Source of the DNA: Halocafeteria seosinensis
Taxonomy: Eukaryota > Sar > Bigyra > Bicosoecida
Direction: 5' to 3'
Assembly (NCBI GenBank): GCA_001687465.1
Contig: LVLI01000043.1
Location: forward strand, 62,001-126,000
DNA length: 64,000 bases
Part shown: positions 10,101-47,766 of the stretch, one piece after another
Position numbering within the stretch: position 1 is the first letter of the stretch
How the letters are laid out: each line of letters begins with the position of its first letter
Position numbers and translations under genes: made by a program
The notes under the pieces: model-generated
What the model was told of the DNA's origin: nothing
Databases searched by the model: none
What the model saw: only the letters and a program-made list of their open reading frames with translations

Positions 10101-11237
10101 TGATACTGCTGCAAATAACACATTGTACCCCCACCCTGACGCTAGATTCCGTGGTAAACGATGGTCTCACAGAGGTGCTTTAAACCATTTTGAATTCATG
10201 GGCGAACTCCTTGGTAAAGCTGTGTATGAGCAAATTCTAGTCGAACCAGCGTTTGCGTCATTTTTCCTGGACAAACTTCTAGTAAGAGAAGGAGGCTGAG
10301 AGCGTAATGATGATGCTAGTTTGTTACAAGTTATGTCTTGACACAGGGAAGAGTGAATACTATTGACGATTTAGCATCCTTGGATATGGAATTTTATAGG
10401 AGTTTAATCCGCTTGAAATACATGTCCTCTGATGAATTGGACGCCCTGGACCTTACATTTGAGACAACAGATGAAATAAATGGGAAGACCTTGAACGTAC
10501 CGCTTTGCCCAGATGGAGAGAACTTAACGGTGAATAGGTCGAATCTTCCTCGCTACTTATACTTGATGGCACACTACAAACTGAACAAGAGAATACAAAA
10601 CCAATGTCGCGCATTTTTGAATGGATTTAGGAAGCTTATTCCGCAACACTGGCTACGAATGTTCACAAGCCATGAGGTCCAGGTACGTTACCATATCTCA
10701 GCAGCACTCTGTTAGGACGACCGCATGGCTTTGAGTTGCAGCTCATCATTGGAGGCACCCCGCGGATCGACTTCGATGATATGTTCAAACATACTAATTT
10801 TGCTGGAGGCTATCATCGAAACCATCAGACTATTAAGGTATGCTGGGTAATTGTTGCTTCCGCTGGTATAAATGATGGGGCATACGAACATGATTGTATT
10901 TGCAGTGGCTGAGAGAAGTTCTTGAGGAAATGAATTGGGAAGACTCTTCGGCGTTCCTCGCTTTTATTACCTCATGCAGTCGGCCCCCTCTTTTGGGGTT
11001 TAAGATGTTGCAACCAAATTTGGGGATCCGATATGTCCCTGAGGAAGATAGGCTGCCAACAGCGTAAGCGATTCCGGTCGTTCTTTCGTTTCGTCTCGTT
11101 CACCACAGCTAGTAAATTCCATTTACAGGTCTACTTGCGCAAACTTGCTCAAACTTCCCAATTATTCGTCCAAAGAAATGCTCAGGGACAAACTGTTATA
11201 CGCTATTCGATCAAAGTCAGGCTTTAACATGTCGTGA
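7178..11237 (+). CDS. UBE3C: HECT-type E3 ubiquitin ligase, UBE3C/Hul5/UPL6 family
   Basis: Eight exons (7178-7263, 7342-9721, 9790-9942, 10006-10281, 10347-10682, 10742-10837, 10906-11063, 11129-11237) sum to exactly 1,198 codons. The N-terminus [18 protein letters not shown] followed by an Arg/Glu-rich helix and an IQ-like segment is the signature start of this family. The last 350 residues form the HECT domain: [40 protein letters not shown] and the catalytic loop [14 protein letters not shown] with the ubiquitin-accepting Cys, ending SGFNMS. Family members extend ubiquitin chains on proteasome-bound substrates in cytosol and nucleus. The length (1,197 aa) is close to that of the human protein. 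The start at 7178 was preferred over an in-frame ATG at 7025 because the upstream part is hydrophobic and unlike the family. Intron 3 has a perfect TACTAAC branch site near its 5' end. Confidence 0.95.
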
Positions 11238-11508
11238 GAAGTGTATGGATATTATGAGTCGTGTGGTCTCAATGAATAGGGTAGACGAGTGAGCACTGTA
11301 ACATTGTGACTCTCTTTCGAGTTCGCACGACCAGCGTAGATAGTCCTTGACTTTACCCATTTAAGTTACACAACATCGTTGGTAGACAATTTTGTACAAT
11401 ACATCTGTTCCTCTCGGTGAAATACGTGTTGGCTGAGTCAATATTCCATAGACTCACACGTTTCTAGATCGAGATATCATTAAGGTCAACAGCACTTTCA
11501 TACCGCCC
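11238..11508. other. Gap between convergent genes
   Basis: About 270 bases between the stop codons of the UBE3C and Nudix genes. It must hold both 3' UTRs. No other feature was recognised. Confidence 0.4.
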
Positions 11509-12770
11509 TTAGCCTGAATCTGACCGTTCATATTGTAGGAAGTCTCGGATCTTCTGTGATTCATCCAGTTGCGTAAGAGGTTCCACTGCATTGGCGAAGT
11601 ATTGACCTTGTGCAAAAGAAGCCACTTTGCCTTCTGCATCCATTCCAAAGTAACCATATGAACTTTTCACTCCAAGAGAGAGTTAAATGAATGCAATACG
11701 CACCTAGAGCATAGTCAAAGTGCTGAGCTGCATTCTGGATGTGCTGCCAGCTATTGTGCAGTGGAATCAATAACACCTGAATTTGTTCATCCCGTTCAGT
11801 AGCAGGCTGAGGATCCTTGTTATCGGGGTCCTCTTCATCAACTTCCATGAATACGGGAGCATATGCTTCTGTAGACTTCCAAGGGTCGACAAATACCGTG
11901 GGACCTACGTGGCGAACGACGCCTTTCAGTCCTGTTTCCTCCTTCAATTCCCGGACGGCTGCTTCTTCTGCACAAGATGAATACACCTCCATATTCTCAT
12001 ACTACATGCTCTAATAATTGCCGATACCGACGCTGAACTTCATTTACCTGGTTTCTCTCCTGGGTCGATAATACCGGAGGCGAACTCAATGACGCCGCGC
12101 TCCACGGGAGGTCGTCCGTTCGCTATCAACACAAGTTTACGAGGGCTCCCCCTTCGATGCGTGACGGCTATACTGCGAGGACAAAAACGGGATCCCATGA
12201 TACCTGCACCCAAGGGGCTGGGGAAAACCTCGGGGGCACCTACATCTCGACGCCATCAATCTTGGAAGTGGATCCTGCTCGAACAGTGGAAGTGGTTCGC
12301 TGACAGAATTCCCAGTCGTATGTTTCCTCCGACGAAGTATTCGAGATGTAGAAGGTCTTTTTCATGAGCTCAAGCCATTTACCAGTAGCTCCCGATCCCA
12401 TCGACTGGACCTCCTTGATCGACATGGGAGGTATGGGTTCACCAATATACTCGATATCTGTGTCGTCCTCGCCCGCGTGGGAAGAAGTGGAAGTTAAGTT
12501 TTCGAAACTTCGAATCCGTGACTGCTTCCTCGAGGTTCCCGGAAGTCGCTCCAGCGCTTGCGCAAGCTGCGTTGGAAGTTTGTCACACTTCGCATACATC
12601 CAATGCACCCCAAAGGCGGCGACAGCAATTCCACCAATCAACCATGAGCGATGGTTTTGGGATAAATCAGTCCACCAGGAAGTCAGAGCGTTTCCCAACT
12701 TGTCCTCCGAGTTGCTTTTGTCAGCAGCTGACATTGCAGCACTAGTGTATGACGATGTCGATGGTGGCAT
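11509..12770 (-). CDS. Membrane-anchored Nudix hydrolase, NUDT5-like (ADP-sugar pyrophosphatase type)
   Basis: Exons 12770-12244, about 12217-12048, 11967-11704 and 11669-11509 give 373 codons plus stop. After a short polar N-terminus comes one membrane segment (WLIGGIAVAAFGVHWMYA) and an acidic linker. The NUDT5-like part follows: TGKWLELMKKTFY, YDWEFCQRTT, IDGVE, then VIEFASGIIDPGEKP joined across an intron to EEAAVRELKEETG. This is the Nudix box with its metal-binding Glu residues. Family enzymes hydrolyse ADP-ribose and related nucleotide sugars. The N-terminal anchor is unusual for NUDT5 and suggests attachment to an organelle or ER membrane. The first junction is odd: the frames fit only if a 26-nt intron (GTAGGT to CCCCAG, 12243-12218) is removed. 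Otherwise there is a one-base frameshift there. The last intron is also short (34 nt). Confidence 0.85.
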
Positions 12771-15049: not shown

Positions 15050-18000
15050 CTAGCGCTCTAACCTTCCGTATTGCTTGTACTCTCTTCTGGCAATGCTTGA
15101 CACAACTTCCGGATCACTCGTTTGAATCAGAGAACGCTCAGTTTCCTCAATTCTCTTCCTTCTAATGAGTGCGTACATCCAAACGGGCAACACGCACACT
15201 ACAACGATTAGTCCTAGAGTGTACATATGAAAACGCTGCGAAAAAAGGTCAACGAGAGTGCCTAAGCCGATTCCGTCCCCTATGAGGACACCACGCAACC
15301 ATAACAGAACGGGATATGCCAACAGACACAGTGTGTTAACGACGTGATTGATCCATACTGGTCTGTGAGACAGGGCTAGTAGAGTAAGGAACACTACGAT
15401 GAGGAGAGCTGTAAAGTTAAAGTAGGAAAAAGCTGGGATATCTGGGGCAGCATCTGGAGAGGCAAACGTGGAGATCAACAACATCGCCCCCGCTTGAAAA
15501 TACCCTGTTGCCAAAAGAGCGGAACCCTGCTCTTCAAACGGAATCGCAAAGCGGAATCGCTGCGCATACAAATGAGGGTGCCGTTCAAGCTTGGAGATTT
15601 CCCATTCTCGATCCAGGACTAAAAGCAATGCGGGAAGAGCTGTATATATCTGCAAAGAAAGAGAAAGAAAGAGAATATTAAATCACAAATAGCTTCACCA
15701 GTACAAAATTAGGAAGCCCGTACCATATTATACGTAGTGAGACAGAAGGTATCGAACAAGGAGCAGCCGCTGAAAAGGCACGCAGGAACGTATCCCACTT
15801 GAGCGGAGCAAAGCACGATGCTCTTGTAGAAGCAGAAAAGGGCAGTAATGGAAGTGCGATGAAGGCTTAAACGCCCATGGACCAACATAAGACGTTCAAG
15901 AAAGCGAAATCTCGATATGCTAAAATCGGCAGACCGCGACGCTTGCATTCCTTCTCTTCCCACTAGTCCTACTCCAACATTGGCGGCCAACAACATGGGA
16001 CAGTCATTGCCACCGTCTCCGATTGCTAAAGTTCTTCCTCGGATCAAACTATGTTTGGATCTTCGCACAAATTGCACGAGCTCTGCCTTTTGAGAAGGAG
16101 ATGCTCGGCAACAAATTACGCTTTTGCAACCGGTCTCAACCAAATGTTCAAACTGGACGCTAAAATACTTAAGCAGAAAAGGGAGAGCACATCCATCTAT
16201 GACGAGGGTATACTCCATTCGTTTCCCCTTGCACTTCAAACAAAGGTTATCATTGATATGCCTTAATTCAGCTGAGACATCTCGCTTCGAATTTCCTCGA
16301 ATGGCCAGTACGAATTTCCTTTTCCTTTCGCTGAGCAGGGATTCTATGTCAGAAGCAGGGCTTTCCATGTGAAGATTGCAGAAACAACCGCTGCGCATTT
16401 CTCCATACCCATCCATCACAGAATTGCTGCCAGAGGAGGAACGGTTCTTTAATGAGATTGTTTCTTGAGGTTCATCCATTAGACGCGACGCCAAAGCTAT
16501 CTGAATGGCTGTGGTGTACTTATCCCCGGTGAGCATCCAAAATCGACAACCACCTAAGCGGAGATTCTCGATTGTTTCGGGTACCCCCTGCTGCAGAGTA
16601 TCCTCTACAGCTGAGGCACCAACGAGTTCGAACTGACACTCGAGCTGACCTGCGGCTTGTTCAATGGCTTTCTCTCTGCCAGCCACCTGCCTTCTCGCGC
16701 CTTCCCATTGCGTTAGCCATTCGGCGTACTCTGACCCACTCATGCGACGCACTACCACCATCAATGTTCGCAACCCTCTATTCGCAAACATTTCGATTTG
16801 ACGATTTGTTTGTCGGCGCAATTTGGCTTCTGTCGATTCTCTCTCACAGTGTCGGAGTCTGGGAAACAAGGCTTCATCCGCGCCTTTGCAAAGTACAAAT
16901 ATCATTGACGTTGTTTGGCACCTAATTACGACACTCATTCTCTTTCTTTGCGAAGTGAAGGGAATCACGTGCAACAGTTCGAGTCTTTCTTGGTGCGTGC
17001 CGCGAACTCTTGAGGAATTGATTTCTTCTTTCACCCACACTCTCTTGGCAGCAGGGTCTTTGTCACAAGATCGGAGCCGCGAAAACAAATCTTCCGGGAG
17101 TGATGCTTGAAACTGAATCAGTAGCTCCTCACTTTCATCATCGAACCTATTCCTTTCGAAAAGAGTAATACCAGCCCGCGAAGCTGCGTACACCAGAGCT
17201 TCCTCATCGGGAGACGCAGACTGAAACTCGACACATCGATATACCTGAGTAAGGTCGAGACTACCCAATTCCGCCTTCGGTAGCTCTACGCCAGCTTCGT
17301 TCGCAGCCAAAGGCATGCTGTGACAGATATCATCTCTATCTGTTGCGTCCCGGCTTCGCAATGCATCACGCTTCACAGGCTGAACAGAGTTACATACGGC
17401 CAGAGTCAGCCAGTATATTTCTGTCCTGGAAGAGAGCTCCAAATTGTGAAGCCTTGAGGCATCAGGTTTGCCTTTTACGGAGACAGGACTCCAAACATCT
17501 TGTGAGTCAAGAACCTCGCCGTCTACACTCCCCATCTTAAAATTCATTACGTTATCCGTGAGGGTCCCGGTTTTGTCGGTGAAGATAGTGTCAATGCATC
17601 CAAGGTCCTCGATGATGTCGCTATTATTCACCATTGCACGAACATCAGAGGCCTCATCGTATACATGTACATCATTCGTTATCAGATACGCATAGTAACT
17701 CTTAGCCAGGTCGAGAGTAACACGTAGAGAGATAGGGATGAGCATCGAAATGAGGAGAAGCACCCTGAGAGGAATAATGAGAAACGCATACCAAGGTCTT
17801 CCCTGCTCTTTAGATTCTGGAGTAATATACCACGGGTCCGACTGGCTTGCAGCAATTACGCCAAACATGGACACCAATACAATCTGGATAACAAAGAGGC
17901 TCGCGGTGTGGTAGTTGATCTGTGCATCAACGCTTCCCATTTTTGTTGGAGGCAACGAGGTGTTTTGCCCTAACTTGGTTTCTCTGCCAGTATATACTGC

Positions 18001-19224
18001 TACGCCTACCACATATTCGGTATCCTTTAGAGTGGTTCCTTGTTGAATTAGATTACCGGAGTCCAAGGGAAACGAATCCCTTCTTCCGGAAGCAGCAGCC
18101 ATCTCAACATCGCCTCCGGAAACGAGTTCGCCCTCGAGGTTGTTTTCCAAGGATAACAATGCATTGAGTTTGTGAACATCTGCGTTCGGTGGATCGCACT
18201 TAATGCAGCATCGCATTTCCGTTAATTGCCGATTGGAGAGCGTATTTGTAAAGTGCAGGGCGTAGCGAGGCTTGAGATCCGTCTCGCCATCGAGATTCGC
18301 TGTCTGGACGTAGCACACCCCTTTATCATCCTGTTCCGTCATTCGGCTCTTTAGGGCCACAAGATCGCATGGTACTTGTTCGTTTTTCTTGACAATAACT
18401 AGATGCCCGGGACGAATGTCTCGGGCTTGTAGAACGGTGGTCGATATCCCTCCTTGCAATATCTCAAATGGTTTGGAGTTCACTTCTTCGTCAGCCTTGT
18501 ATCGGCGGTAATCATCGTACGCTGCTCGAATCGCCGTGATGACCAGGACTACTATGAGAGGCGCCCACGTCGTGATGGGATTCACTGGCGTAATCGCGCT
18601 CCATAGTTGCAAACATGCAATAAACAAAAAATATCGATTCATGTAACTGCGGAACTGATCATATAAGTTCTGCAGCAGGACACACATAATTCGTTCCAGA
18701 TGAACTCTTGACGCTTCTCGGTGGTCTCAAACTGGCCCACTGAGTGCAGCAAGTTCAGCAATGCAGTTGTCGAAAATACCATCGGAAACACTTACATGAG
18801 GGATAAAGGTCCATAGCGTGTATTTAGTGCTTCGGACAGCGTTGTTTGGCAGTTCTGGCGTCTTTTCAGGCCGATTCAGGTAGACGATTCTCCATCCATG
18901 GGCATCTTTATCACCCTCCTCACTCCCTGAGTCATCTGAACTCGAACTTCCGGCTATACGATCCTGTATATCGTCTCGAATCTGCGAATATCCCCTCTGA
19001 AGGGCCCTTGAAGTCCGGCGGTACATGGTTTTCAGAGCGTTCCAGCACTTATACAAGGCCGTTCTCCTCTCTTCTTTTTTTGATATATCTTGCTCAATGT
19101 CCAGACTACCAGTTACATCAGGTGGACACGATGAAGAAGACCGAATTAATGCATGAGAAGAGCTGGAAGTGGTGCTGTCACGCTCTCGAAGCCCTCCTCG
19201 ATGGAGCATTACCACCACCACCAC
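15050..19224 (-). CDS. P4-type ATPase, phospholipid flippase
   Basis: Exons 19224-18796, 18669-15724 and 15649-15050 sum to 1,325 codons. After about 80 disordered Ser/Asp-rich residues comes the P4 start (RIVYLNRPEK, NAVRSTKYTLWTFIPH, then NLYDQFRSYMNRYFLF). Further P4 hallmarks are the PISL motif in TM4, the phosphorylation loop FTDKTGTLTDNVMNFK, SPDEEALVYAA, the hinge LTGDKYTTAIQIA and AIGDGGNDCPMLLAANVGVG, with the usual C-terminal membrane segments. Family members move aminophospholipids or glucosylceramide to the cytosolic leaflet of Golgi, endosome or plasma membrane, usually with a CDC50 partner. The actuator loop reads DGETDLK where most P4 classes have DGETNLK. Asp at this place is known from the Neo1/ATP9 class, yet other motifs look like the ATP8 type. 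An alternative ATG lies near 19206. I cannot assign a subclass. Confidence 0.93.
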
Positions 19225-19809: not shown

Positions 19810-22176
19810 CTAGTCTTCCATAAGATCATCCAGGTCAAATTCTCCCCAATCGTCCTGGTTGTTTGTGTTTTGTGAAATAAACGAAGGTAGAAACATACCG
19901 ATACTCGATCGCCGCCTCTCTCCATGATCAGCAGACCCACGTACTGAGGGTATGCTCCCGCTACCTTCGTCAACTCCGTATCCGTGTCCTGTTGTTGATG
20001 GTGCTGAGCCCTCAGCGGGAGGTCGACTATCAAATGTCACGGCTTTGCCTTTCGGTGTATCGGCTGCATCAAATGAAGAATGTTGTCTTCTGCGGCTAGC
20101 TTCTATTTCGGAAAAAGGCATTCGAGCTGGGCGCTCGGCATCTCCTATTCTCCGTGAGGCAGGTGAAGAGGGACTGGAAGGTGAGCCCCTCCGAGGACTA
20201 TTGAAAAGCATAGCTTTAATTTGATGCTCCCTTCTTTGGGCTGCCCGGCGGTCTTCTGCCGATGGCCGTTGTTTCTGTGGCGAGTGCGGACTACCTGAAT
20301 GTGGGCTGCCAGATCCGGGTAATAACGTCTTGTGGAGCAATTGCAGTTGGGCGGGGCTCAGTACCCCATATTTGGCAACAGTTTCATCCTCCATTGACCC
20401 ATCGCTTGAGTCGCTTTCGTCTGCGGTAGCCGATTGTTTGCTCTGAGAAGCTCTTGGCTGTATAGCGTATGTAGCAAAGACTTCATCGTCAAGCGGTTCT
20501 TCACTTTCATCCTCCTCGCTATTTGCTACAGCAGTTATTGTTGGAGACGTCATCTCTTGAGCCAATATTTCTCGGTCACTCTGGGCTGTATGTGGCGGCA
20601 TTGATTCTTCATGAGAAGGAGCAGAGTATGCTGCTGGTTCGGTTGCAGCCATTTCGAAACCAAAAGGACTATCTTGCTGACCAAACGTGAGGGTTTCGCT
20701 TTCTGTCGCCGGGGACATTGAGTACCCTGTGTAGTATTCATAGTCTTCAGGATAAGAATTATTGTCATCTCCAACGCCGGGCACTGTGTGATGTTCAAGA
20801 AGTGATCGCTCCAGCTGAAGGATTGCGCTTTCTCCAGGAGGTTGACCCGTTCGAGGAGTCTCCTCCGTAGTCTCTTTCTCAGGGGGATGTAGGTGTGTTT
20901 GCGATACTTCATTGTGCCCAGCGCTCTCCATTGCTATACTGTCTCTACCTTGCGAAATATTTGAAGTGACTGGGGAACTTGCTCCGGATGAGATATTTCC
21001 TGATACGGAGGTATCTCGAGTTCCAGCGGTTGAGACTGGCGGTCCCAATTCATTTCCCGATAAACCCTCAGTCTCGTGTTCACCATTAGTTTCATCTTCA
21101 CCTTGAGATACATTAGCGTAGATACTAGTTTCATGTACATACACCACATCCTCGTCTGACTTATCACTGTCCGGTAACGTACCGTCCGTAGTACTGTCTG
21201 TAGTGTCTCTCCTGGATGTTTGTCCTGCTGGGACGGTAGGGCGACGATCTTTCACCCTTATCTGCTGTAGTTGATCAATCGCCCCTCCTATACGGTCATG
21301 TCGTATATCTTGTTTCCTTTGCTCTGCTCGCCTTTTTTCTTCTTCCAGTGCATGCTGCCATTTTTCCACTAATTTTGAATGACGAGTCGCACGATTAGAA
21401 CTCCGTCGAGACCTTCTGGGAGTATGCGTTCCTGATTCAGAATGAGACAGTTGCGATTGCGAAGAGGAGACCTGTTCTCTTGTCGATGAGGAAGGCAACT
21501 CTTCTGGTTGCCTGTCTACACCTTGGCTTTGTGCCCTGTCTACACCTTGTTTCTGCTCTGGGGTGGGAGGATTTCGTAATTTTTGCCCTCCATAACTTCG
21601 TTGTTTCAAGGGAGATGAAGGTAAGTTCTGAGAACTATCAGCTTCTTGAAACTCATCCTTCCGTGAATGAAGTCCGGATTGCACACCATTCGTGTGCATT
21701 TGCGGTCTTTCGTCCGTTGCAGCTGACGTTTGTCGTACCGAAGTACCGCTGTCACTAGAAGTCTGTCTTCGGTCCCCTGAGGCGCTATACGTGCGCAGTG
21801 GGGAACTTCGTGGATCTTGGAACTGCCTAACGTTGACATAGCTCTGTGGACTTGACGGAGGGGTGTTCTCTGGAGGAAGCTCTAAGTCGTGACGATTCGG
21901 TTGTCTTAAGTTACTTTCGCTGCGCGGTGAGGAGAAGTGAGCTCTATACCCCACTCCAGGTGGGGACGGCGGTGAAGCGATCTCGGAGCGCACAATGTCG
22001 CGTAACTTATCAACGGAAGAGGGCGTCCGTGGTAAGGAGGGGGAATCCTCATTATGTGCTGCAGGAGGAGGAGTTGCCGTCCGTGGCGACGGCGAACGCG
22101 GGGAATCGTGATGGAGGCTTCGGGTTGCTTTCATGGCTCCAAGTCGTTCGTAGCTTCGGTACGATGCTGCTGCCAT
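19810..22176 (-). CDS. Large disordered Ser/Pro-rich protein with acidic C-terminal motif
   Basis: A single uninterrupted frame of 788 codons. The first 250 residues are rich in SP, SSP and RRS motifs, typical phosphorylation-prone disordered sequence. One basic helical segment follows (LVEKWQHALEEEKRRAEQRK, around residue 270). The middle is Glu/Ser/Thr-rich. A second SP-rich stretch (GSGSPHSGSPHSPQKQRP) precedes the end. The last residues DDWGEFDLDDLMED form a short acidic-aromatic motif resembling ligand peptides for clathrin-adaptor ear domains. No enzyme domain is present. The only ATG near the 5' end of the frame is at 22176 (MAAASYRSYERLG). I do not recognise an orthologue. A trafficking or cytoskeletal adaptor role is a guess from the C-terminal motif alone. 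Confidence 0.75.
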   Translation of the reverse strand: MAAASYRSYERLGAMKATRSLHHDSPRSPSPRTATPPPAAHNEDSPSLPRTPSSVDKLRDIVRSEIASPPSPPGVGYRAHFSSPRSESNLRQPNRHDLELPPENTPPSSPQSYVNVRQFQDPRSSPLRTYSASGDRRQTSSDSGTSVRQTSAATDERPQMHTNGVQSGLHSRKDEFQEADSSQNLPSSPLKQRSYGGQKLRNPPTPEQKQGVDRAQSQGVDRQPEELPSSSTREQVSSSQSQLSHSESGTHTPRRSRRSSNRATRHSKLVEKWQHALEEEKRRAEQRKQDIRHDRIGGAIDQLQQIRVKDRRPTVPAGQTSRRDTTDSTTDGTLPDSDKSDEDVVYVHETSIYANVSQGEDETNGEHETEGLSGNELGPPVSTAGTRDTSVSGNISSGASSPVTSNISQGRDSIAMESAGHNEVSQTHLHPPEKETTEETPRTGQPPGESAILQLERSLLEHHTVPGVGDDNNSYPEDYEYYTGYSMSPATESETLTFGQQDSPFGFEMAATEPAAYSAPSHEESMPPHTAQSDREILAQEMTSPTITAVANSEEDESEEPLDDEVFATYAIQPRASQSKQSATADESDSSDGSMEDETVAKYGVLSPAQLQLLHKTLLPGSGSPHSGSPHSPQKQRPSAEDRRAAQRREHQIKAMLFNSPRRGSPSSPSSPASRRIGDAERPARMPFSEIEASRRRQHSSFDAADTPKGKAVTFDSRPPAEGSAPSTTGHGYGVDEGSGSIPSVRGSADHGERRRSSIGMFLPSFISQNTNNQDDWGEFDLDDLMED

Positions 22177-22415
22177 GGTACCGCCTCTAAGCCGTCGAAA
22201 AGGACATAGTAGTGGGTATTTATCCCGTACTGGCGGTAAAATACACTTTTTTTGGCGCGCAAAACTGCAAATCCCCTTTATTCAGTTCCAGGATCACTCC
22301 AGAACTCCTATATTCACCACGCGGACTCTATTAGGAGCATATAAACGTTAGCATCTCTAACATGTCAACAAATACCAATACCATTTATGTACTGAACTGA
22401 CTACTCCCATCCCGC

Positions 22416-22426
22416 AAGTTGAAGTT
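22416..22426 (-). promoter_or_regulatory. Candidate upstream motif AACTTCAACTT
   Basis: Reads AACTTCAACTT in the sense of the minus-strand gene starting at 22176, about 240 bases upstream. Longer versions of the motif lie upstream of two other genes in the window (59303 and 63749). Confidence 0.35.
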
Positions 22427-22765
22427 GGGATTCAAGTCATTGAGTAGGACTTCCTTCGTCCCCTTGAGTGTGTTTTCGGGTGAGTGACCACATTACCACC
22501 TTAAACTGGTTTGGTTCTACTGAGTAGAGCCCTATTTCACACTGCAAAGACGTAGGTTGATGCGCTTGAATGGACAACATCGACCTTCACAGAGGACAGT
22601 AGTGCACGCATGACCGCATCCATGGTATGTATGTTCGATCGTAACAAACTCGCGCTTCGCATAGTTTGCATTCGGGGAGCATCAACTCTGCTGAATTAAA
22701 AACTGTGCCAAATTAATGAAAAGTGAGAGAAGCAAATCCGCACTTAAATTTTCTCATTGCTAGTT

Positions 22766-26901: not shown

Positions 26902-29745
26902 CTAGTACGTTCGTTCAGTGACGAACCACCCGAAGGAACGCAACATAATTTTAGAAAACGAGTCTTCAATGAGTGGATCGAGTTCGGCCCAGGCGTCCTC
27001 CACCATATCAATGGCTTGCTGTACGCATGCATCTAAAGCACCACACTCTTCCAACACGTTAATGCAATGAGTTATGGTCTCAGGATCACTTGGCTTTGCC
27101 TTGATGGTGGTCCACAAGTCTGTCATCTCTTCACGAGACAAGCGAGCCATCGCCTTTACAACTGGAATGGTGACTTTCCCTGCGGTTATATCCTCTCCTA
27201 GATTTTTCAGACGTACATCTTTAACACGATCAGCATCACCTGTTACCAAACCACGAAGGTTTAGGACATCATCCATCACTTGGAAAGCAACACCCACATT
27301 CTCAAAGTATTTCCCCACTGCCTCAACCTGTTCTTTCGTTCCTTTACCTGCTATTGCGCCCATTCGAGCGAGTGAGCCGGCGGGAACTGCCGTCTTCAAT
27401 CGATGTATAGCAAGAACACGTTGCTCGGGTAGCGCGGAATCACCGCGAGAGATGCAGTCATCCATCAGGTAATCAAGTCCCGCAATGTCTAAAGCTTGGC
27501 CCGCATGGCCCCCACGAAGAGCAGCGAAGTATAAATCGTACACCTCATTTAGCTCTTTGTCGGAGAGGCAATCGAGTTTCAGCATCTGTTGACTTTGGAA
27601 ATACGCCGCCGTTCCAGCGTTAATTGCTATCGATTCTCCATAGACCAAATGGCAGCTTTCAACTCCACGACGGACGCTGGACTTGTCTTGGATGTCATCT
27701 ACGATAAGAGATCCAACATGCATGAACTCAGGCATAGCCAGCCAGTGCAAAAAGCTGCGAGCATCCCCTCCCACGACGTCTATGCAAGCCAACGCTCCAT
27801 AACTTCTCCAAGATTTCCCACCCCGATCGCAAATATGTCGGACAGGAGCAATAATACCGTCATATATCTTATCGTAAGGAACACCTTCCATGTAGTGCTG
27901 AGTCTCGGGAGTAGCGACCAAACGAAGGGTCTCCTCGTAGTTCGGATTGTCTGGGTAAATTTCTTGCACCATCTGGCGAGTTTTCTTCCCGACAGCTTTA
28001 AAGAACGTATTAAGCTCCGACAATGGATTAAATCCGTTTCTTTCAATGAAACCTCTTCCAGTAACACGTTTACCATTCATTGTTCCCTGTACATCAACAC
28101 GGCCTTCCCAGAAAGCCGGCTTAGCAAGAATTGTAATAAACTCCTGATCGGCAAAAGGGGCAGTAAGGGTCAGGTCAACGCCAACTGGTTCAATGTTGAC
28201 TCTCCATTCGGTGGGATACTCGTTGAAACTTCTTACAGAGGTCCACCATTTTGTGCCTTCGAAAACAAGGTCTCGTGATTGAAGTCGTGCTCCTTGCGGG
28301 TCAATAATGATTGCTCTCGTTTCCATTACTTTCTGCGCTGTGCTTCGTGGGTCAACAAGCACTGCAAGAGACAGTTCATGATCATTGTCGAGCTGGATGG
28401 CTGCCCAATTCCAAGCATAGTTCGATACGGGAACAGTCTCTTCACTTCGATATCCACCGAATTCGTGGTCATACCAGCCAGTTCCCGAAGCAACTCGCCG
28501 AGACACACCATCTACTTGGAAGGACCCGGAAAGGGTGCAGCGAGGAATCAGGTAATAGTACATGTCATCTCCATCATGGCCCTTGACCACACCATCTGCT
28601 CCATGACGGACCGCAGGCTTAACCGGATCACAGACGAAATCAATGGCAGTATTTCCGTCCTCGGTGGATGCCTTCAATATATAACGCCCCTTTCTGTCTT
28701 TCTTAACAGATGCTGTTTCGAAACGAATGTTGAATTTGTTCTCGTTGCATTCGATTTCCTCCTTGAACATTCTGTCTGGCCTCGGAACGTTGCCCTTGTC
28801 AAAAATTTCTAAGTACGCACGGCGTAAACGCGGATCGCGAACCATGCGATCATCTTCCAATTGTTTTTTGACGATCTCCGGTGTGTCCCTGTCCACAAGG
28901 ACTTCTTGGTAGTACTTTTCGTTTTGAACATCAGTAAATCCAAAGTTCAGTGCGTGTGCGTAAGTCTTTTCCCCAGTCTTTTGATCAACCGTTTTCGCGA
29001 TCCTAAAGAAACAGACGAAGGCACTGTATTCATTCCCTTCGGTATCAGTGAAATGTGTGTTGTAGTACCACCACTCGGTGTAACTCGATTTGTGAGGTAA
29101 ATCATGCTTTACCAGATCAATGGGTCCAATATGTGGAGGCCAGTCAACACGTTCGGCGGGTTTCACGAACCCACGGAAGCTAGTGGTGTCCAACACTCGG
29201 CTTCCAATGGAAAGGAGATTTTTCAGGTAGTCATCCAGTTGCAGTCGCCTGAGATCAGCAAAATCCGGATGTACGCAGCAACCTCCAGAGGAGCTACTAT
29301 TTGACTCAGTATCGGATATGTCTTCGGGAGAAGAGTCTTGGAGAGTTTCTGGGTCATCCGGTTGTTCAGTTCGCCCAGTGGTCATCCCAGGGACGGAAAA
29401 TTGGGGAAGCTCATACTGGAACCACCGACGGTTTTGCAATTGCACACCGTCGCTAGAATTTAGTACACCGTACGCGTAAAGATCATCTTGTAGCACCTCG
29501 AAATCCTTGAAAGATCTCCAAACTTTCTGAGACGATCCATCCGATTTCTTCGACCGCACACAGAAAAGGACATCCTTCTGGTGGGAAGCTGGTTTATAAT
29601 CCACAACAGACACATCCGTGATGGAATATGTCATTTCATCATCTTCAGCGGGTGTGTAATCGAGAAGAGCATCCTTTCCAGCTCCAGGAATCGTTTGCCT
29701 GTACAGATTGCACACGCAATAATCCAACGAGTTACCGTGACACAA
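26902..29745 (-). CDS. Fusion protein: PX-like domain, AttH/CrtC lipocalin-like domain, isoprenyl diphosphate synthase
   Basis: A single intronless frame of 947 codons. Residues about 35-180 look like a PX domain (YSITDVSVVDYKP, VWRSFKDFEVLQDDL, RLQLDDYLKNLL). Residues about 200-590 form the AttH/CrtC fold with its EWWYYNTHF and TGWYDHEFGG signatures. This family includes carotenoid 1,2-hydratase and fungal cyclisation or hydration enzymes. Residues about 625-947 are a trans-isoprenyl diphosphate synthase: GGKSWRS, first metal motif VDDIQD, GGHAGQALDIAG, LKTA, second motif FQVMDDVLN and GEDITAGKVTIP. The DDxxN form of the second motif occurs in eukaryotic type III GGPP synthases, so the enzyme is probably active. 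Together this suggests a prenyl chain made and then modified on one chain at a phosphoinositide membrane. The true start may be MTYSITDVSV or may lie in an upstream exon, since an acceptor-like CTGTACAG occurs near 29700. Confidence 0.88.
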   Translation of the reverse strand: MCHGNSLDYCVCNLYRQTIPGAGKDALLDYTPAEDDEMTYSITDVSVVDYKPASHQKDVLFCVRSKKSDGSSQKVWRSFKDFEVLQDDLYAYGVLNSSDGVQLQNRRWFQYELPQFSVPGMTTGRTEQPDDPETLQDSSPEDISDTESNSSSSGGCCVHPDFADLRRLQLDDYLKNLLSIGSRVLDTTSFRGFVKPAERVDWPPHIGPIDLVKHDLPHKSSYTEWWYYNTHFTDTEGNEYSAFVCFFRIAKTVDQKTGEKTYAHALNFGFTDVQNEKYYQEVLVDRDTPEIVKKQLEDDRMVRDPRLRRAYLEIFDKGNVPRPDRMFKEEIECNENKFNIRFETASVKKDRKGRYILKASTEDGNTAIDFVCDPVKPAVRHGADGVVKGHDGDDMYYYLIPRCTLSGSFQVDGVSRRVASGTGWYDHEFGGYRSEETVPVSNYAWNWAAIQLDNDHELSLAVLVDPRSTAQKVMETRAIIIDPQGARLQSRDLVFEGTKWWTSVRSFNEYPTEWRVNIEPVGVDLTLTAPFADQEFITILAKPAFWEGRVDVQGTMNGKRVTGRGFIERNGFNPLSELNTFFKAVGKKTRQMVQEIYPDNPNYEETLRLVATPETQHYMEGVPYDKIYDGIIAPVRHICDRGGKSWRSYGALACIDVVGGDARSFLHWLAMPEFMHVGSLIVDDIQDKSSVRRGVESCHLVYGESIAINAGTAAYFQSQQMLKLDCLSDKELNEVYDLYFAALRGGHAGQALDIAGLDYLMDDCISRGDSALPEQRVLAIHRLKTAVPAGSLARMGAIAGKGTKEQVEAVGKYFENVGVAFQVMDDVLNLRGLVTGDADRVKDVRLKNLGEDITAGKVTIPVVKAMARLSREEMTDLWTTIKAKPSDPETITHCINVLEECGALDACVQQAIDMVEDAWAELDPLIEDSFSKIMLRSFGWFVTERTY

Positions 29746-32002
29746 ATGCAGTCACATTTACGAAGCGTTTGTAAAAGGAGGGGGAATCAATTTCTGGTCC
29801 TTGACCCGCAATATTGTGCCTAGAGTCTACCAAAACAGACACTACATACCATACATGTATGGTAGAGGAAACTGAGAGATTCTACAGGAACCGACAAGGG
29901 CTTATTTGTCATCGTTGAACTCTCGTACAACAACATGGACGTAACGCGTTTGCACAGATTTCTGGGTCAGCCAGAATATCGAGCCATCAGCGCACAAGGC
30001 TTACTGGATAGAACTACCGTTCGAGCTGCTGGCGCGTTGTGGACGGTCCACCTATCTCCGCTTCCCTTGCTCCCCCCCGAGAAAATGATTTTTGTTGTTT
30101 TCTTTCTTTGTGTCCGCACCAACACTGCATTGTAGCAGCTTCTCGGTTTCTGGGGCATGCAGCGTATGTTTGCAACTAGGCAATCTGGCATACGCTGCTT
30201 ATAGAATGCAGCAGCAGCAGGGGAAAAAGGGCCCTCCCCGTCCCTTGGAATGGAGATCAGACCACCCATATGTACATGTACGTATAAAGATACACTCCTT
30301 GACCACATGCTTGGTGCCCACCGCGACGGATACGCATGGGCATGCGTATTAACAGACGCTGGAGTTTGCGTTTGGCCAAGCAGGGCTCCTACAGGCTCAC
30401 CATCCCAACCACAACCACAAAGTCTACTCCATGCGGCAAGAACTCCACACCGCACCCTATGAGAAGACGGAGCTTTGTTCACTTACATTCTCTTGTCCGC
30501 GTTCATCGTGTTGGAAGACACTTGAAGGGAGATCTTGCGCTCAATTGTCTCACAGTACCAGCTAACGTTATGCGGCTAAACAGACCAAGTGTGTGGTACC
30601 GGTAACAAGACACCAATCAAACTGCATTGTGATAAAATTCGGGGACCTCCCCAGTATTCCAGGCAATCTTTCCTTTGTGTGTGCTACTACGGAAAAGAAT
30701 TGATTGGCAGGAACGCCTTCGGTATTCGAAGTGCTTTCATCCAACATCCAAATGCAATCATTAATTATAATTCATATCAAACGGCATTGGATTGATTAAG
30801 GATTATCTCGAAGGAGTGGTTGTTGGTCAGACTCTGTCGAGTTCGCGTGCTTCTGTTTCGCAAAAATGGCAGATACTGTAAGGTGGTCACAATACCTTGC
30901 AAGGGCTACAATCCCAATGCGTTACCCCCGATGGCATTGCATCGTGACAATTTCTCGCCCCATTGCGCTATCTGGAACAAACTTTCATCGCCATCGGGGT
31001 CATCGGGGGCACAACTTTACAGGATTAAAGACAAAATTTAGTCGGACGAAAAAGAGATGAAGAAAGCCATTAACAGCGTCTAACTAATTAGAGCTTACTG
31101 GTATTGGTCCCCACTGCCCTAACAGACGTTGTCCGGCGCCTCTTCCCTGAGCAAGCGGGCAATGACTCTCGAGCACGTTGCCAAGGACACATATACGACT
31201 AAAGTCTCGGGCATGCTGCAAAGGATAGCGTGCCACGCAAACGATCCGCCGTCATGACAGGGATAGCAGTGGAACTGGGGAACTACGTCCGCATGGCTCA
31301 AATGCCATTGCAGAGGTGCTCGTGGTACCAAAAGGCCCACGAGCACAGTGTAGGTCGATGCGACAGTGCGAAATCCGCTCACAGGGCAGGACAGCAGGGA
31401 AAGCCCTCATCGCGGCAGAATCCGAGAAGATGAAACGGACACAATACGGACAACTGAGGGATCACCACATGGAAAGTATTCCGTTCCGGGCAAATGACTT
31501 CGGTAACAAAAGATCTAAAAGGGCCGCATGTTGGATGTTATGTTTGCTTATAGTCTTCCCGCTTCTCGCAGCGGAATAAGGTTGATCTGTCAGAGTTGGA
31601 TACTTGCCGTCCGCAAGTTGCGGAACCTTTTCCTTTAGTCGTCGTCGAGCTCGAAGAGGGTGCGAGGGACATTGCAAACTTTAGATAAACTGGTAAATCC
31701 TATTCGCGTTGAACGAATGCAGGCATAGGGGACGGGGAGCTAATGCTACTAAAGTTACAAGCATTTGTCTAGGGGCACGACATAAACCTCAGCGACTGCC
31801 GACGTCTGACCGCCACAGCTATAAGTGATATCAATGATACACCGGATAAATGCGAATGCTCTTCTCATAATAGTCCGGAATGCCATGGTATGGTTTTCTT
31901 CTTCTTCCTTTCTTCGTAGTTTGCTGTCCTACGCATCCTGCTGTGTTGGAGGCACTTGCCGGCTTGCTCTCTTGTTTCCCACATAGATTGTAGACTGTCT
32001 TC
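29746..32002. other. Long intergenic region, no intact gene
   Basis: More than 2.2 kb without a convincing gene. It contains an 18-bp perfect palindrome (TACCATACATGTATGGTA, about 29848-29865), a small inverted repeat TGCTCGTGG/CCACGAGCA near 31317-31345, and the decayed fragment copy B. Open frames of 60-170 codons on both strands overlap each other and have no domain-like content. Confidence 0.5.
31596..31710 (+). pseudogene. Decayed coding fragment, copy B
   Basis: Related to 26061-26172. It reads LDTCRPQVAEPFPLVVVELE then EGARDIANFR and a stop. The shared TCCTATTC and ATTCGCGTT downstream show the homology extends past the coding part. Confidence 0.5.
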
Positions 32003-43336: not shown

Positions 43337-46300
43337 TTGTGTTTCCAGCGCCCAATTCCAATTCCACCAACACTACTGAGATCAGTGAAGATACGCAAAC
43401 TTCATCATGGAAATCGCCATACCCACATCAAAATTGCATTTCCTTATGCCCTCAGAGCCCTCGGTAGATCCTCAGACCCGTCAATCTTTTCTTTGGCCGT
43501 TAGAGTGGGGCTATTTCAATGCCTTTTGACGGCTTTGTCAGGACTCCTTCGATACTACAACTACCGGCATTCGGATCTCAATGTGATTAGTGTGGCCATG
43601 GACACGCGACAGGATGAGGATGAATGGATCTTATCGGTGAATATGGCCACGGGAGGAAATGGCTCCCAACTTCAACCTGGGGCGTCTCAGGACCGAATTT
43701 CGTCTCATTCACGCCCTTTTCACGGCTCTCCGTCCCCTTTGATGCCTTCGAGGTCGGCTCAGACTCGTGGCAAGTCTAGAACGAAAAGCCGATCGAAAGG
43801 CCGTCCTTCAGAAAACGGTGAAAATGAGGAAAAAAGCGCCTTGGAGCAGCAACAGGAGAGCGCTAAACTGGAATTTCAGCGAGAAGTCGATAAATGTCGC
43901 TATGCAGCTCAGCAATACAGGGAAATCGTCGCCTCTCTACCGCGGCGGTCGGTCCTCGTACGGAACACCACAGTCCCCGTCTTTACGAGCGAGCAACAGG
44001 ACCCCCAGGACGATGAAGCTCCAGTCCGACAACATGGAAGTCTAATTTCGTTACAAGAGCTCCAAGGGAGATCTAGTACCCCTACGTTCAGTTTTAGGAA
44101 GGCTATGATCAATGGAGGCCTCGTGGTCCAATTTTCTGGGATCCAAGAATCCGACCCGGAAACGGCCTGGAGTAGCCGACAAGCGTTCTCGAAACTAATG
44201 ATGGCGCTTAGGAAAGTCAAACAAGCCAGTCGTAAGAGGCAATCGGCAGGTCTTTCCACGAGACCTCTGACGTTGTCTGAGAAAGACCTTAGCACAGGCT
44301 CGGTGGAACCTCGCCTGCAGCCTGTAATGTATTATTCCGTGTGCAATAGCCAGTCACCTTTGATGCATGCCATATTACAAACGAATGGGTTCCAACTCGC
44401 ACTGTCTTCCGAATATATTTCGGAAGAAGACACAGGGAGCAAGCAGCGTATTAGTCAGTTCTATAAGCAGGCTTTGCAAGGGGCCAAGGGAAGTCGTCCT
44501 CCACCGCCACCGTCTACTTCTGCGTATGAACAGCCTTTAAGACTGCAGGAAGACGGTGCTTGGCGCAAGTCGAACAGGAAAGGAACGAACAAGAGACTAG
44601 GAACCAGAAAATCGCAAGGCAAAGTGCCTCCAAAATCGGTTTCACTGCGAATACCATTGTGCTTAGAGACACTGGGTATCACACAACAGAAGCCTTGGCA
44701 CCTGCAGTGGATATCTGCCTACATGAAGACTCACGATTACAAAGGCATGACCCGGTTTCAGAAGATTAATCAATTCCCGTGGTCTATCGAGCTGACCAGG
44801 AAAGGTACGGAAAACGATCTCACGCTTACGAGTATTACTCACACGAAGTCTTGTTGGGCCTGTTTGCAGATTCACTTGCTCATAATTTAGACCGGATGTC
44901 ACAAACGTACGGAGCCAAGCATTTCGATTTTCTACCGGCTACTTATGTACTTCCGTCAGACGCATCTGCCTTTAATCAAATATGCGAGAGTGATCCCGTA
45001 AGCTTTCAACTTTTTTTGTCATGCCTTGTGCTGGATCTCATGAAAGATGGGTCCTTCCTTTATGTGTTGCTTCAGGAAGCTGTATGGATCGTAAAGCCCT
45101 CAGGAGCTGCCCAAGGACGAGGAATATACTTGACCCAATGTCGAAATGGCTACTCAGGAGGGGGACTGCCTCCACCACCATTGGCTGGTAACGGCAAACC
45201 CAAGCGAACGTCAAGAGAAGCTTCTGCTGTTCCCGGCCAGAGAGTTGATACAGACGAGGAAGAGGATGATGACGACGTTCAAGCAGGGTTGGCCAATGGA
45301 CAATCAGCTGAAAGGTTGGCAGCAAGCCATCTCCCTTCGAACCCTATTGCGCGCATTGCTGCTGCCAAGGCTTCAGGCGTTGATGTTGATTCGCCAGTCT
45401 TTTCCTCTTCACATCCTTTGTCTCCCTCGAACAAGTCCCAGCATAACGAAGGTTCTCCTCCCTCGAGCCCTTCTTCGCCCAGCATGAGTAGTTCGTTTCC
45501 GTCTACAGACACATGCATCGTAAGCAGGTACATCAAGAATCCTCTTCTGATCGATGGGTTTAAGTTCGACATCCGTATATATGTTGCGGTAACGTCATTT
45601 GACCCGTTGGTCGTGTACGTCCATCGCCAAGGATTGACACGTTTTGCTACGAGAGAGTACGATGACAACATCAACAACCTGAACGATAAGTTCATGCACT
45701 TGACTAACTATAGTATCAACAAACATAACCAAGACTACGTAATAGGCTCTGGTACTAGACAGTCTAAAGGTCCTTCCAGTGGAAAAGGATCCAATACCGA
45801 GACGGACGAAATCGAAGGAGATGGTGAAGGTCATAAATGGACTATTTCGGCTCTGCTGAAGCGCTTATCGTCCGAGGGTTTTGATGTGGATGCACTCTGG
45901 TGTAAGGTAGAAGACCTGGTAGCGAAGACATTACTCTCATCTCAAGAGCGGATTGTCCAAGCGACACGGCGGCACGTACCTTTCCCGCATGATAATTGTT
46001 TCCAGCTCTTCGGTTTTGATATCATGATAGATGACCGACTGAAACCGTGGCTCCTCGAAGTTAATCTATCTCCTTCTCTCGGGATTGACAGCCCGCTTGA
46101 TTTTCGAGTCAAATCCCAAGTGATCTCAGATCTCCTATCTTTAGTGGGCTGCCGAGTACCTCCGGCTATTACTTTCAGCTCAAAACAGAGTGTATTGGAT
46201 ATCTCTCCAGAGAGTATTGACGTACCCGCAGCCTCCGGTAACGAGAAAGCAGATCATCCCCAATCAACCAAGTCTACTCCAGCAACTGCGAAGGGCTTGA

Positions 46301-47766
46301 GCAGGGCAAAAAAGCAAAGTAATGCTCATCGCCCCGCTCATACTTCGGCAACAACTTCCAGGAAGTCAAAACCCCAAGCGAAACAGGCCATCAGTTTACC
46401 GCGCATTGCTGGGCTACCAGAAACGGATGATTCTCCTCCTGCTTCACCCAGACCTAGATCAGGGGAGTCCGAAAATATTTCGCAAGAGTCCGTTTGCGAG
46501 GCATGCTTTCAGAAATTACAGAAGGTGTCAATGGAATTTCATAAGAAATGGTTGCTCGTGCTGTACGATTTCCTCGGTCTCGATGGAAATGATACTGGAA
46601 ATTTGGTCGATTCCGACCTTCGGTCCAATGGGATTGGCCTGTGGATAAACTTGGCTTTAGGCTATCCTACTCGGCTTTGTCGGTTTGTACAGGTATACGA
46701 ACCCATTTTGCCGGAGGAGATCAAAGAACTGGTGGGTGTAGCAAGGACACGGTTACACAGAGACTGTCAGGAAGAGAGCAGACCTGAATCGACAACCGAC
46801 AGAATTAGGAGGCGAATTTCTGCTCAAGGGTCGCGCAAATTGGATGGCGACCTTGCTTTCGATGAACAGACAGAAGCGAGAACCGGCTCCGACAAATATC
46901 AGAACGTTCGCTCAAGTTTCTCTACACCAGCCCAAGAGTCTGGTAACAAAGCGTTGCCTTCTAACCTTTCTGACTTAATCAAAGGATATGCGAAGAGCGG
47001 AAAAACTGTGTGGAAGGACTATCCTAATTATATCAACTTAGCAGTGGACACTCATCTCATCCCAAGATCTGTGCGCAGAGCCATTCTTGATACGCTAGAT
47101 ATGTCAGAAGAAGATCGTCTGCTCATCTCCAGGTTTGAGCAAGAGCATGCTCGTCGAGGACAGTTTCAGCGAGTTCTACCCACTGCTTATAGAAACAGTC
47201 TTTCATGGAAAACTTACTTTGAGGCCGCCAGATCGTCGAAGGATAAAACAGAAGATGTTTTTCCCGTCTATTTGTTAAAATGCTATGAGATTCATGAATC
47301 TTACTGCCACTGTGCTAAGGAGGTTAAGAAAATCCCAAAGACGAGTCTGATTTCTGAGTCAAGCAATCAACTGATATGGAAGCGGGTTACTTCTCGACTC
47401 CAGCCTATAACTCTCGATCGCATGCTCACAATTGCACGTAGCGGTAGTGGCTTGGTTCGGAGAGTTGTCCAGCACTACGAAAAACGGGAGAAGCAAGCAT
47501 GGGAATTCCTCAATCACGATCATAACAGAAGATACTACGCTGGTAAGAAACCAAAGCATCTGCCTTCCGAAGACTCTCGCAAACCCGGGAGTTTTCGGTC
47601 TAATGTTAACGAAGACCCACAACGCAGCTTCAACCGAAACGCCCTTTCGGCGATGTTTGATGCCTCTAATCTACATGTGGCTGCTACGTGGCAGTCTCAT
47701 TTGAAGGCGATTCCTCAGAACAAAATAACTATTCTTCCACCTCCAGAGCATGGGTCTGGTGATTAA
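43337..47766 (+). CDS. Tubulin tyrosine ligase-like enzyme (TTLL4/5-type, probable tubulin polyglutamylase)
   Basis: Exons 43337-44804, 44870-44997 and 45076-47766 sum to 1,429 codons. The ATP-grasp TTL domain is clear: RFQKINQFPWSIELTRK joined over the intron to DSLAHNLDRM, FLPATYVLP, VWIVKPSGAAQGRGIYL, RYIKNPLLIDGFKFDIRIYV, FMHLTNYSINK, and FDIMIDDRLKPWLLEVNLSP. These carry the ATP, Mg and substrate residues of the family. An acidic, Pro/Ser-rich insert of about 110 residues splits the domain between GRGIYL and RYIKNP. The second intron (78 nt, a multiple of three) is open in frame but interrupts the conserved run before VWIVKP. The C-terminal 550 residues are basic and partly helical, as in long TTLLs that bind microtubules. 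The start is uncertain. MDTRQDEDEW at 43598 is the likelier one because the upstream 87 codons look non-coding. Confidence 0.92.

Follow-up and report, generated by a model that had tools for sequence, protein, structure and literature searches.

A gene encoding an isoprenyl diphosphate synthase (IDS) fused to a CrtC/AttH-type domain was investigated in a 64,000-nucleotide stretch of the Halocafeteria seosinensis genome (contig LVLI01000043.1, positions 62,001 to 126,000), referred to here as the window. The gene occupies window positions 26902-30506 on the minus strand and its product of 938 residues is encoded by two exons; all residue numbers given here are those of the 938-residue mature protein. 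A Pfam scan revealed the order PX, CrtC, Lipocalin_9 and polyprenyl_synt in one frame, and the features are as follows.

30487..30506, minus strand: exon 1, comprising the first 6 codons plus 2 bases, with the ATG at 30506-30504 and a GT donor at 30486
29699..30486, minus strand: intron of 788 bp, GT-AG (GTAAGT...ACAG)
26902..29698, minus strand: exon 2, encoding the remainder of the 938-aa protein, with a TAG stop at 26904-26902
29176..29544, minus strand: diverged PX domain, residues 59-181 of 938 (Pfam PF00787, 15.8 bits, E 0.02)
28456..29079, minus strand: CrtC N-terminal lipocalin domain, residues 214-421 (Pfam PF07143)
29068..29076, minus strand: EWW motif, E215-W217
28468..28470, minus strand: D417, counterpart of the CrtC catalytic acid Asp268, mapped via Roseobacter litoralis CrtC
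28405..28413, minus strand: W436-x-W438, counterparts of CrtC W283/W285 (available part of PMC12402844), mapped via R. litoralis CrtC
28033..28419, minus strand: Lipocalin_9 domain, residues 434-562 (Pfam PF17186)
27055..27849, minus strand: IDS domain, residues 624-888 (Pfam PF00348)
27685..27699, minus strand: first Asp-rich motif DDIQD, residues 674-678
27259..27273, minus strand: second Asp-rich motif DDVLN, residues 816-820

Both CrtC/AttH barrels exceeded their Pfam thresholds (CrtC, E 3e-21, 77.2 bits against a cut-off of 22.5; Lipocalin_9, E 3e-21, 76.4 bits against 26.2) and polyprenyl_synt was detected with an E-value of 1.3e-44, while the PX match remained under the gathering cut-off of 21.6 bits. 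An earlier inspection of the window from its nucleotides alone (the sequence-only reading) had described a three-part protein with PX-like, AttH/CrtC and prenyl synthase motifs in one frame; of the profile searches that it proposed as a check, those with PF00348 and CrtC/Lipocalin_9 gave matches well over the cut-off and that with PF00787 a sub-threshold one. All the hallmarks of a trans-IDS were present (two Asp-rich motifs, GGKxxR, KT and a distal K), and the first Asp-rich motif is preceded by small residues, Gly-Ser, which by the chain-length rule are presumably compatible with a product of at least C20. Every matching NCBIfam IDS model scored far under its cut-off (GGPP_syn, 96.5 bits against 500), so the domain was not assigned as a geranylgeranyl diphosphate (GGPP) synthase. 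No terpene cyclase domain was found among the Pfam matches of the protein at E-values up to 1.

Every motif quoted in the sequence-only reading was found in a 949-codon open frame at 26905-29751 (minus strand), for which a TTG start at 29745 and an intronless structure had been proposed. The 5′ part of this frame is predicted to be non-coding, with the coding start in an upstream exon, because two paralogues on contig C199 of the same genome and the 91 % identical P0002 show a short first exon. Exon 1 is homologous to exons of the paralogues, located at L037:3410-3457 and L037:9455, and to the N-terminal end of P0002, whose header resembles those given to assembled transcripts and which reads through the exon junction. 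The matching exon, donor and acceptor are located at the same position in both paralogues, the position and phase of the intron being identical. The start ATG of the paralogues is ATC in the window copy, where translation probably starts at the next in-frame ATG, giving 938 residues. The TTG start is therefore replaced by the ATG of exon 1, and retroposition, which had been put forward as one possible origin of the gene, was ruled out by the presence of the 5′ intron.

In a homologue search 8000 candidates were scored, giving 1080 matches of which 120 were listed. CrtC, Lipocalin_9 and PF00348 occurred together in 119 of the 120 listed homologues, so that the search for the same fusion in other genomes, which had been suggested earlier, gave a positive result; a precomputed PX annotation was also present on 30 of the 120. 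Named listed homologues included the eukaryotes Cafeteria, Mucochytrium and Hondaea together with EukProt entries, and bacteria of the Myxococcales, Kofleriaceae and Deltaproteobacteria, to which a second homologue search added Schekmanbacteria. When genomes were scanned with a Myxococcales protein as the seed, 25 loci were returned, 21 of them with the fusion, and 15 of these 21 were titled as groups of Myxococcota or Deltaproteobacteria, a share that may have been inflated by the seed. The fusion was present in three of 395 genomes of a Bacteroidota sample, including the starting genome, and in 12 of 195 genomes of the phylum of G011, including those already known. More distant CrtC-IDS fusions were found at locus L087 (25 % identity), in Tolypothrix (35 %) and in Streptomyces canus (31.5 %); a scan of viral contigs revealed no relative of the Tolypothrix fusion. 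A search with the CrtC domain only gave 94 matches, several of which, at an identity of at least 35 %, lacked PF00348, although many were on short contigs or were perhaps split gene models. Among the matches listed, no description of a CrtC/AttH-IDS fusion was found in titles or abstracts of the open-licence PMC literature. The earlier statement that no described protein with this domain order was known agrees with this literature search, but in sequence databases the order is common. A chance fusion or an assembly error was ruled out by the three genomic copies, P0002 and the listed homologues. One bacterial locus, L015 (CAMDBH010000001.1), is titled, probably in error, as a metagenome-assembled genome of Klebsiella pneumoniae; its fusion is 59 % identical to a myxobacterial one. 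The PX-CrtC fragment P0153 carries the name ‘archaeon’ but in all likelihood comes from a eukaryote.

A FastTree phylogeny was reconstructed from 141 sequences and 737 columns, five short sequences having been dropped, and was rooted on L087, which has a very long branch and makes the root unreliable. All 30 PX-flagged sequences and all five named eukaryotic entries fell into one clade of 72 (support 1.0), which includes the window protein and its two paralogues, the bacterial loci being placed outside it. A transfer of the fusion from bacteria to eukaryotes is plausible, subject to this unreliable root. Lateral transfer, as proposed earlier for the window gene, would then have been an old event common to the whole eukaryotic clade rather than one specific to this gene.

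Residue conservation was counted over 142 aligned sequences, with ‘ungapped’ denoting rows that have a residue at the column. In the IDS part, D674 was conserved in all 142 sequences and D675, D678, D816, D817, N820 and K775 in 141 each. In the CrtC part, Y388, H418, E526 and E538 were each found in 142 of 142 and D417, W415, W436 and W438 in all 141 ungapped rows; within the EWW motif, E215 was present in 137 of 137 ungapped rows and W216 and W217 in 136 of 137 each. R. litoralis CrtC (L092), annotated as a carotenoid 1,2-hydratase and matching NF045922 at 521 bits, was used as the reference for mapping: its Asp268 aligned with D417, and W283/W285 with W436/W438. According to the available part of PMC12402844, Asp268, W283, W285 and W110 are essential in the Rubrivivax gelatinosus enzyme (RgCrtC), which hydrates C12-C20 terpenes, so that carotenoids are not its sole substrates; H239, W241, Y266 and D268 are lethal when changed to Ala, as given in the accessible text of PMC4717167. 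The positions of H239, W241 and Y266 are taken in the fusion by D385 (D in 122 and H in two of 142 sequences), Y387 (F in 134 and Y in eight of 142) and W415, respectively. The window domain gave no match to NF045922, the NCBIfam CrtC equivalog, at E 0.01. Because three of the four residues lethal as Ala in RgCrtC differ and NF045922 is unmatched, the middle domain is classed, on its sequence, as a CrtC-superfamily member that retains the acid Asp together with the WxW pair, and not as a carotenoid 1,2-hydratase.

All eight of the PX-flagged relatives that were scanned were above the Pfam PX cut-off (best 6.2e-17), the unflagged P0003 being below it (20.2 bits). An RR(Y/F) motif with its second Arg is a mark of PX domains of the phosphatidylinositol 3-phosphate-binding type. 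At this position the window protein has RSF, a Ser replacing the second Arg of some relatives, and that Arg was found in 19 of the 57 rows with an N-terminus of more than 100 aa (5 RRY, 4 RRF, 7 HRY and 3 RRA). Anchoring at a phosphoinositide membrane, as the sequence-only reading had it, is therefore weakly indicated: a PX-like domain is present, but it is under the cut-off and has Ser for the second Arg. A strongly hydrophobic N-terminal segment was found in the thraustochytrid branch and its sister group, where other relatives have PX (P0060, P0061, P0062, P0066 and P0075; P0074, P0077 and P0093).

The host genome assembly (G000; 30.6 Mb, 605 contigs) was searched with profiles that were read exon by exon, by which multi-exon genes were recovered but a strongly split gene could escape. 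PF00348 was detected at five places, namely an FPP-synthase-like and a Coq1-like gene (both by motif reading) and three fusions, two of which are in tandem on contig C199, and PF07143 was found in exactly the three fusion genes. A stand-alone GGPP synthase was not seen in this exon-wise PF00348 search, which a split gene could escape. In the three pairwise comparisons among the paralogues, the CrtC part gave ratios of non-synonymous to synonymous substitution (dN/dS; Nei-Gojobori) of 0.10-0.11 and the IDS part gave 0.07-0.12, compared with 0.17-0.26 in the N-terminal part; given these low values, both enzyme domains are under purifying selection in every host copy. PF00494 (squalene/phytoene synthase family) matched a NUDIX-squalene synthase fusion, the PF00494 part of which we read as a squalene rather than a phytoene synthase, and a split gene on contig C284, which by eye we take to resemble the complex I factor NDUFAF6. 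Since no phytoene synthase was recognised in the host genome by the exon-wise PF00494 search, a C40 substrate for the host fusion appears unlikely. The host probably needs GGPP, because there are three strong PF00432 loci, consistent with protein prenyltransferases. The NUDIX domain of the squalene synthase-like fusion (L034:700-2934, G000:C109) looks isopentenyl isomerase-like by eye. The sole UDPGT (PF00201) place found in the host genome shares contig C284 with the split PF00494 gene, about 10 kb apart (10926-11611 and 22007-22483), probably by chance.

The neighbourhoods of the bacterial fusions were compared using gene calls from a codon-score script; 75 neighbours, up to two per side, were tallied at the 21 loci, 25 of 123 families being listed. 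Glycosyltransferases of the GT28 type (PF04101) adjoined the fusion at L026, L027 and L029, and other glycosyltransferase families are possible beyond those listed. At L026 the fusion, the glycosyltransferase and IspH are encoded on one strand, almost without gaps. With L025, these are the four loci titled neither Myxococcota/Deltaproteobacteria, uncultured bacterium (L010) nor Klebsiella (L015). Chance adjacency is unlikely, as these genomes hold just 2, 3 and 2 PF04101 places, respectively, which corresponds to about 0.003 per genome if 3000-4000 genes are assumed, in a test chosen after the data had been seen. Clustering of all 25 loci by neighbour families revealed no conserved operon partner in most of them; the widest families were one of ~205 aa in six loci (no useful Pfam match), short-chain dehydrogenases in four and one of ~596 aa in four, others occurring in two or three. 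GTP cyclohydrolase I neighboured the fusion at L009 and L011. Seventeen of the 21 bacterial fusion genomes hold a PF00494 protein, and in 10 a PF00494 gene lies within ~3 kb of a separate IDS gene on a contig other than that of the fusion.

The most elaborate arrangement was encoded by a plasmid of Tolypothrix sp. PCC 7601 (L093:11646-16175), where sulfotransferase, glycosyltransferase, CrtC, Lipocalin_9 and IDS are joined in one chain of 1509 aa that retains the acid Asp and the WxW pair. It is flanked by genes of an ATP-binding cassette (ABC) exporter (membrane fusion protein, DevC and ATPase) and appears to be a complete glycolipid pathway within one polypeptide. Tolypothrix PCC 7712 has the CrtC-IDS part at 100 % identity. 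The S. canus fusion adjoins an ABC transporter pair.

We favour, with a probability of roughly 0.5, a bifunctional isoprenoid enzyme in which the CrtC domain adds water to the far end of a prenyl diphosphate (at least C20) that the IDS has synthesised, the resulting omega-hydroxy prenyl lipid being glycosylated in some bacteria. The C-terminal IDS would join isopentenyl diphosphate units to the growing chain, which would be transferred to the middle domain and bound there by its far (omega) end; Asp417 would protonate the terminal double bond, Trp436/Trp438 and possibly Trp216/217 would hold the cation, and addition of water would yield the omega-hydroxy prenyl lipid. The new hydroxyl would be glycosylated in several bacteria and, in Tolypothrix, probably also sulfated, whilst in eukaryotes the N-terminal PX domain, or the hydrophobic segment of the thraustochytrid branch, may keep the enzyme at a membrane. 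A synthase and a hydratase in one chain, with the hydroxyl passed on to a glycosyltransferase in some bacteria, would account for the residue conservation, for the fusion and its neighbouring genes, and for the fact that no carotenoid synthase was recognised in the protist. An enzyme working in two steps, first building a chain and then hydrating or cyclising it, was already part of the sequence-only reading; this view is supported, as are the three-part order, the complete IDS motifs and the AttH/CrtC-type domain with its acid Asp.

Several observations weigh against hydration. Of H239, W241, Y266 and D268 of RgCrtC, as described in the available part of PMC4717167, just D268 is kept, and the changes at the other three could fit cyclisation or another proton-driven reaction. 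The N-terminus of R. litoralis CrtC did not align with the fusion, which leaves the counterpart of W110 unmapped and EWW as a candidate for it. In the S. canus relative the acid Asp is replaced by Glu, and a Nitrosomonas stercoris relative keeps the IDS with an N-terminal part that has no Pfam CrtC match. PF04101 neighbours occurred in just three of 21 loci, a link picked after seeing the data, and the L027 match scored 21.4 against a Pfam cut-off of 22; no glycosyltransferase was present among the scanned neighbours of L025 or of L086 (four neighbours) and L087 (three), two additional loci that belong to the phylum of L029. Genome G010 (L018) has a second PF00494 gene on the contig of the fusion, ~4.6 kb away from it, a possible hint of a C30/C40 link, and the cell may depend on the fusion for free GGPP, a supply that complete hydration would undermine.

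If the CrtC/AttH domain protonated the IDS product and closed rings with no water added, the protein would be a bifunctional class II-like terpene cyclase. The CrtC mechanism has been proposed by analogy with squalene-hopene cyclase, an acid Asp and aromatic cation stabilisers being common to both (available part of PMC4717167), and the loss of H239 and Y266 with the aromatic swaps could give a drier pocket; the glycosyltransferase linkage and the sulfotransferase-glycosyltransferase-CrtC-IDS chain nevertheless suggest a hydroxyl, and we regard cyclisation as unlikely, although a cyclic alcohol would fit as well. It is comparably improbable that the protein is mainly the GGPP synthase of the cell, with a lipocalin-like domain that serves to hold the chain, to pass it on or to adjust its length, and a PX domain that places it at the site of Rab prenylation. 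The presence of fusions at three of the five PF00348 places, in a host that probably needs GGPP, would suit such a role, but an acid Asp and WxW pair that are near-invariant across bacteria and protists and strongly selected would be unusual for a passive carrier. Moreover, Aurantiochytrium limacinum has a separate 417-aa GGPP synthase without a predicted transmembrane domain, and two other putative GGPP synthase genes failed to replace CrtE and gave no beta-carotene support (PMC10141969, available part). If one of these two is the fusion, on which that text is silent, a product other than free GGPP would fit. Least probable by far is a carotenoid pathway enzyme whose IDS feeds phytoene synthesis and whose CrtC domain hydrates a C40 carotenoid: the homology to CrtC, the frequency of PF00494 proteins in the bacterial fusion genomes and the G010 gene speak for it, but such a role is weakened because no phytoene synthase was recognised in the host and separate IDS genes adjoin PF00494 genes away from the fusion, and NF045922 was unmatched.

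The proposed hydratase-synthase was compared with known systems. With the carotenoid 1,2-hydratase CrtC of R. gelatinosus and R. litoralis it shares the superfamily, the acid Asp and the WxW pair, so that proton-started chemistry on a terminal isoprene unit would be expected; unlike CrtC it has an IDS, lacks H239, W241 and Y266 and, at the loci seen, is not part of a carotenoid cluster. Among solved structures the best sequence relative of the middle domain is AttH of Nitrosomonas europaea (PDB 2ich; E 1.2e-12), which has EWW, WxD and WDW motifs but is a 335-residue chain without IDS and is labelled putative. The IDS part has all the catalytic motifs of GGPP and polyprenyl diphosphate synthases (PF00348), among which PDB 5e8k and 3mzv are its best PDB sequence relatives, whereas the fusion adds an N-terminal CrtC domain. 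Fusicoccadiene synthase (PaFS) and comparable bifunctional terpene synthases likewise make and then transform a prenyl diphosphate in one chain, but in them the second step belongs to a terpene cyclase domain (available part of PMC8190136), in place of the lipocalin-type CrtC domain found here.

Taken more broadly, it is possible, if somewhat doubtful, that these proteins, spread over several bacterial phyla and marine protists, constitute a new isoprenoid synthase class. In one enzyme, a prenyl synthase and a proton-driven hydratase of the lipocalin type would start a hidden omega-hydroxy-prenyl glycolipid pathway, the most elaborate form adding a sulfotransferase and a glycosyltransferase; the protists would have acquired the fusion once and directed it to a membrane by means of the PX domain or the hydrophobic segment. 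If hydration is correct, this would represent widespread unstudied lipid chemistry in which prenyl chains are hydrated inside the enzyme that makes them, some then being glycosylated, and a cofactor-free hydratase already coupled to its own substrate supply. It would also account for the many database proteins named ‘geranylgeranyl pyrophosphate synthase/predicted secreted hydrolase’ and warn against using such fusions as plain GGPP synthases. Under any reading, the question arises of how the host gets GGPP if the sole GGPP synthase candidates found in it are fusions.

Further observations concern the bacterial loci and the window. At three loci of myxobacterial type (L016:12329, L017:4295 and L024:12355), the next gene downstream of the fusion has the same orientation and encodes a conserved protein of ~596 aa, those of L016 and L024 having no Pfam match. 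Similarly arranged ABC ATPase and permease genes are located beside the S. canus fusion (L094:12318-13801) and beside a stand-alone IDS of Streptomyces sp. NBC_01431 (L096:8034-9520). On the N. stercoris plasmid (L095:13362-18078) the IDS gene is followed by flavin monooxygenase and methyltransferase genes, and this may be a relative in which the CrtC active site was lost. Within the window, neighbouring genes at 15712-18726 (minus strand) and 44770-47763 (plus strand) matched a phospholipid-flippase-type P-ATPase and a tubulin-tyrosine ligase, respectively, and are ordinary eukaryotic genes.

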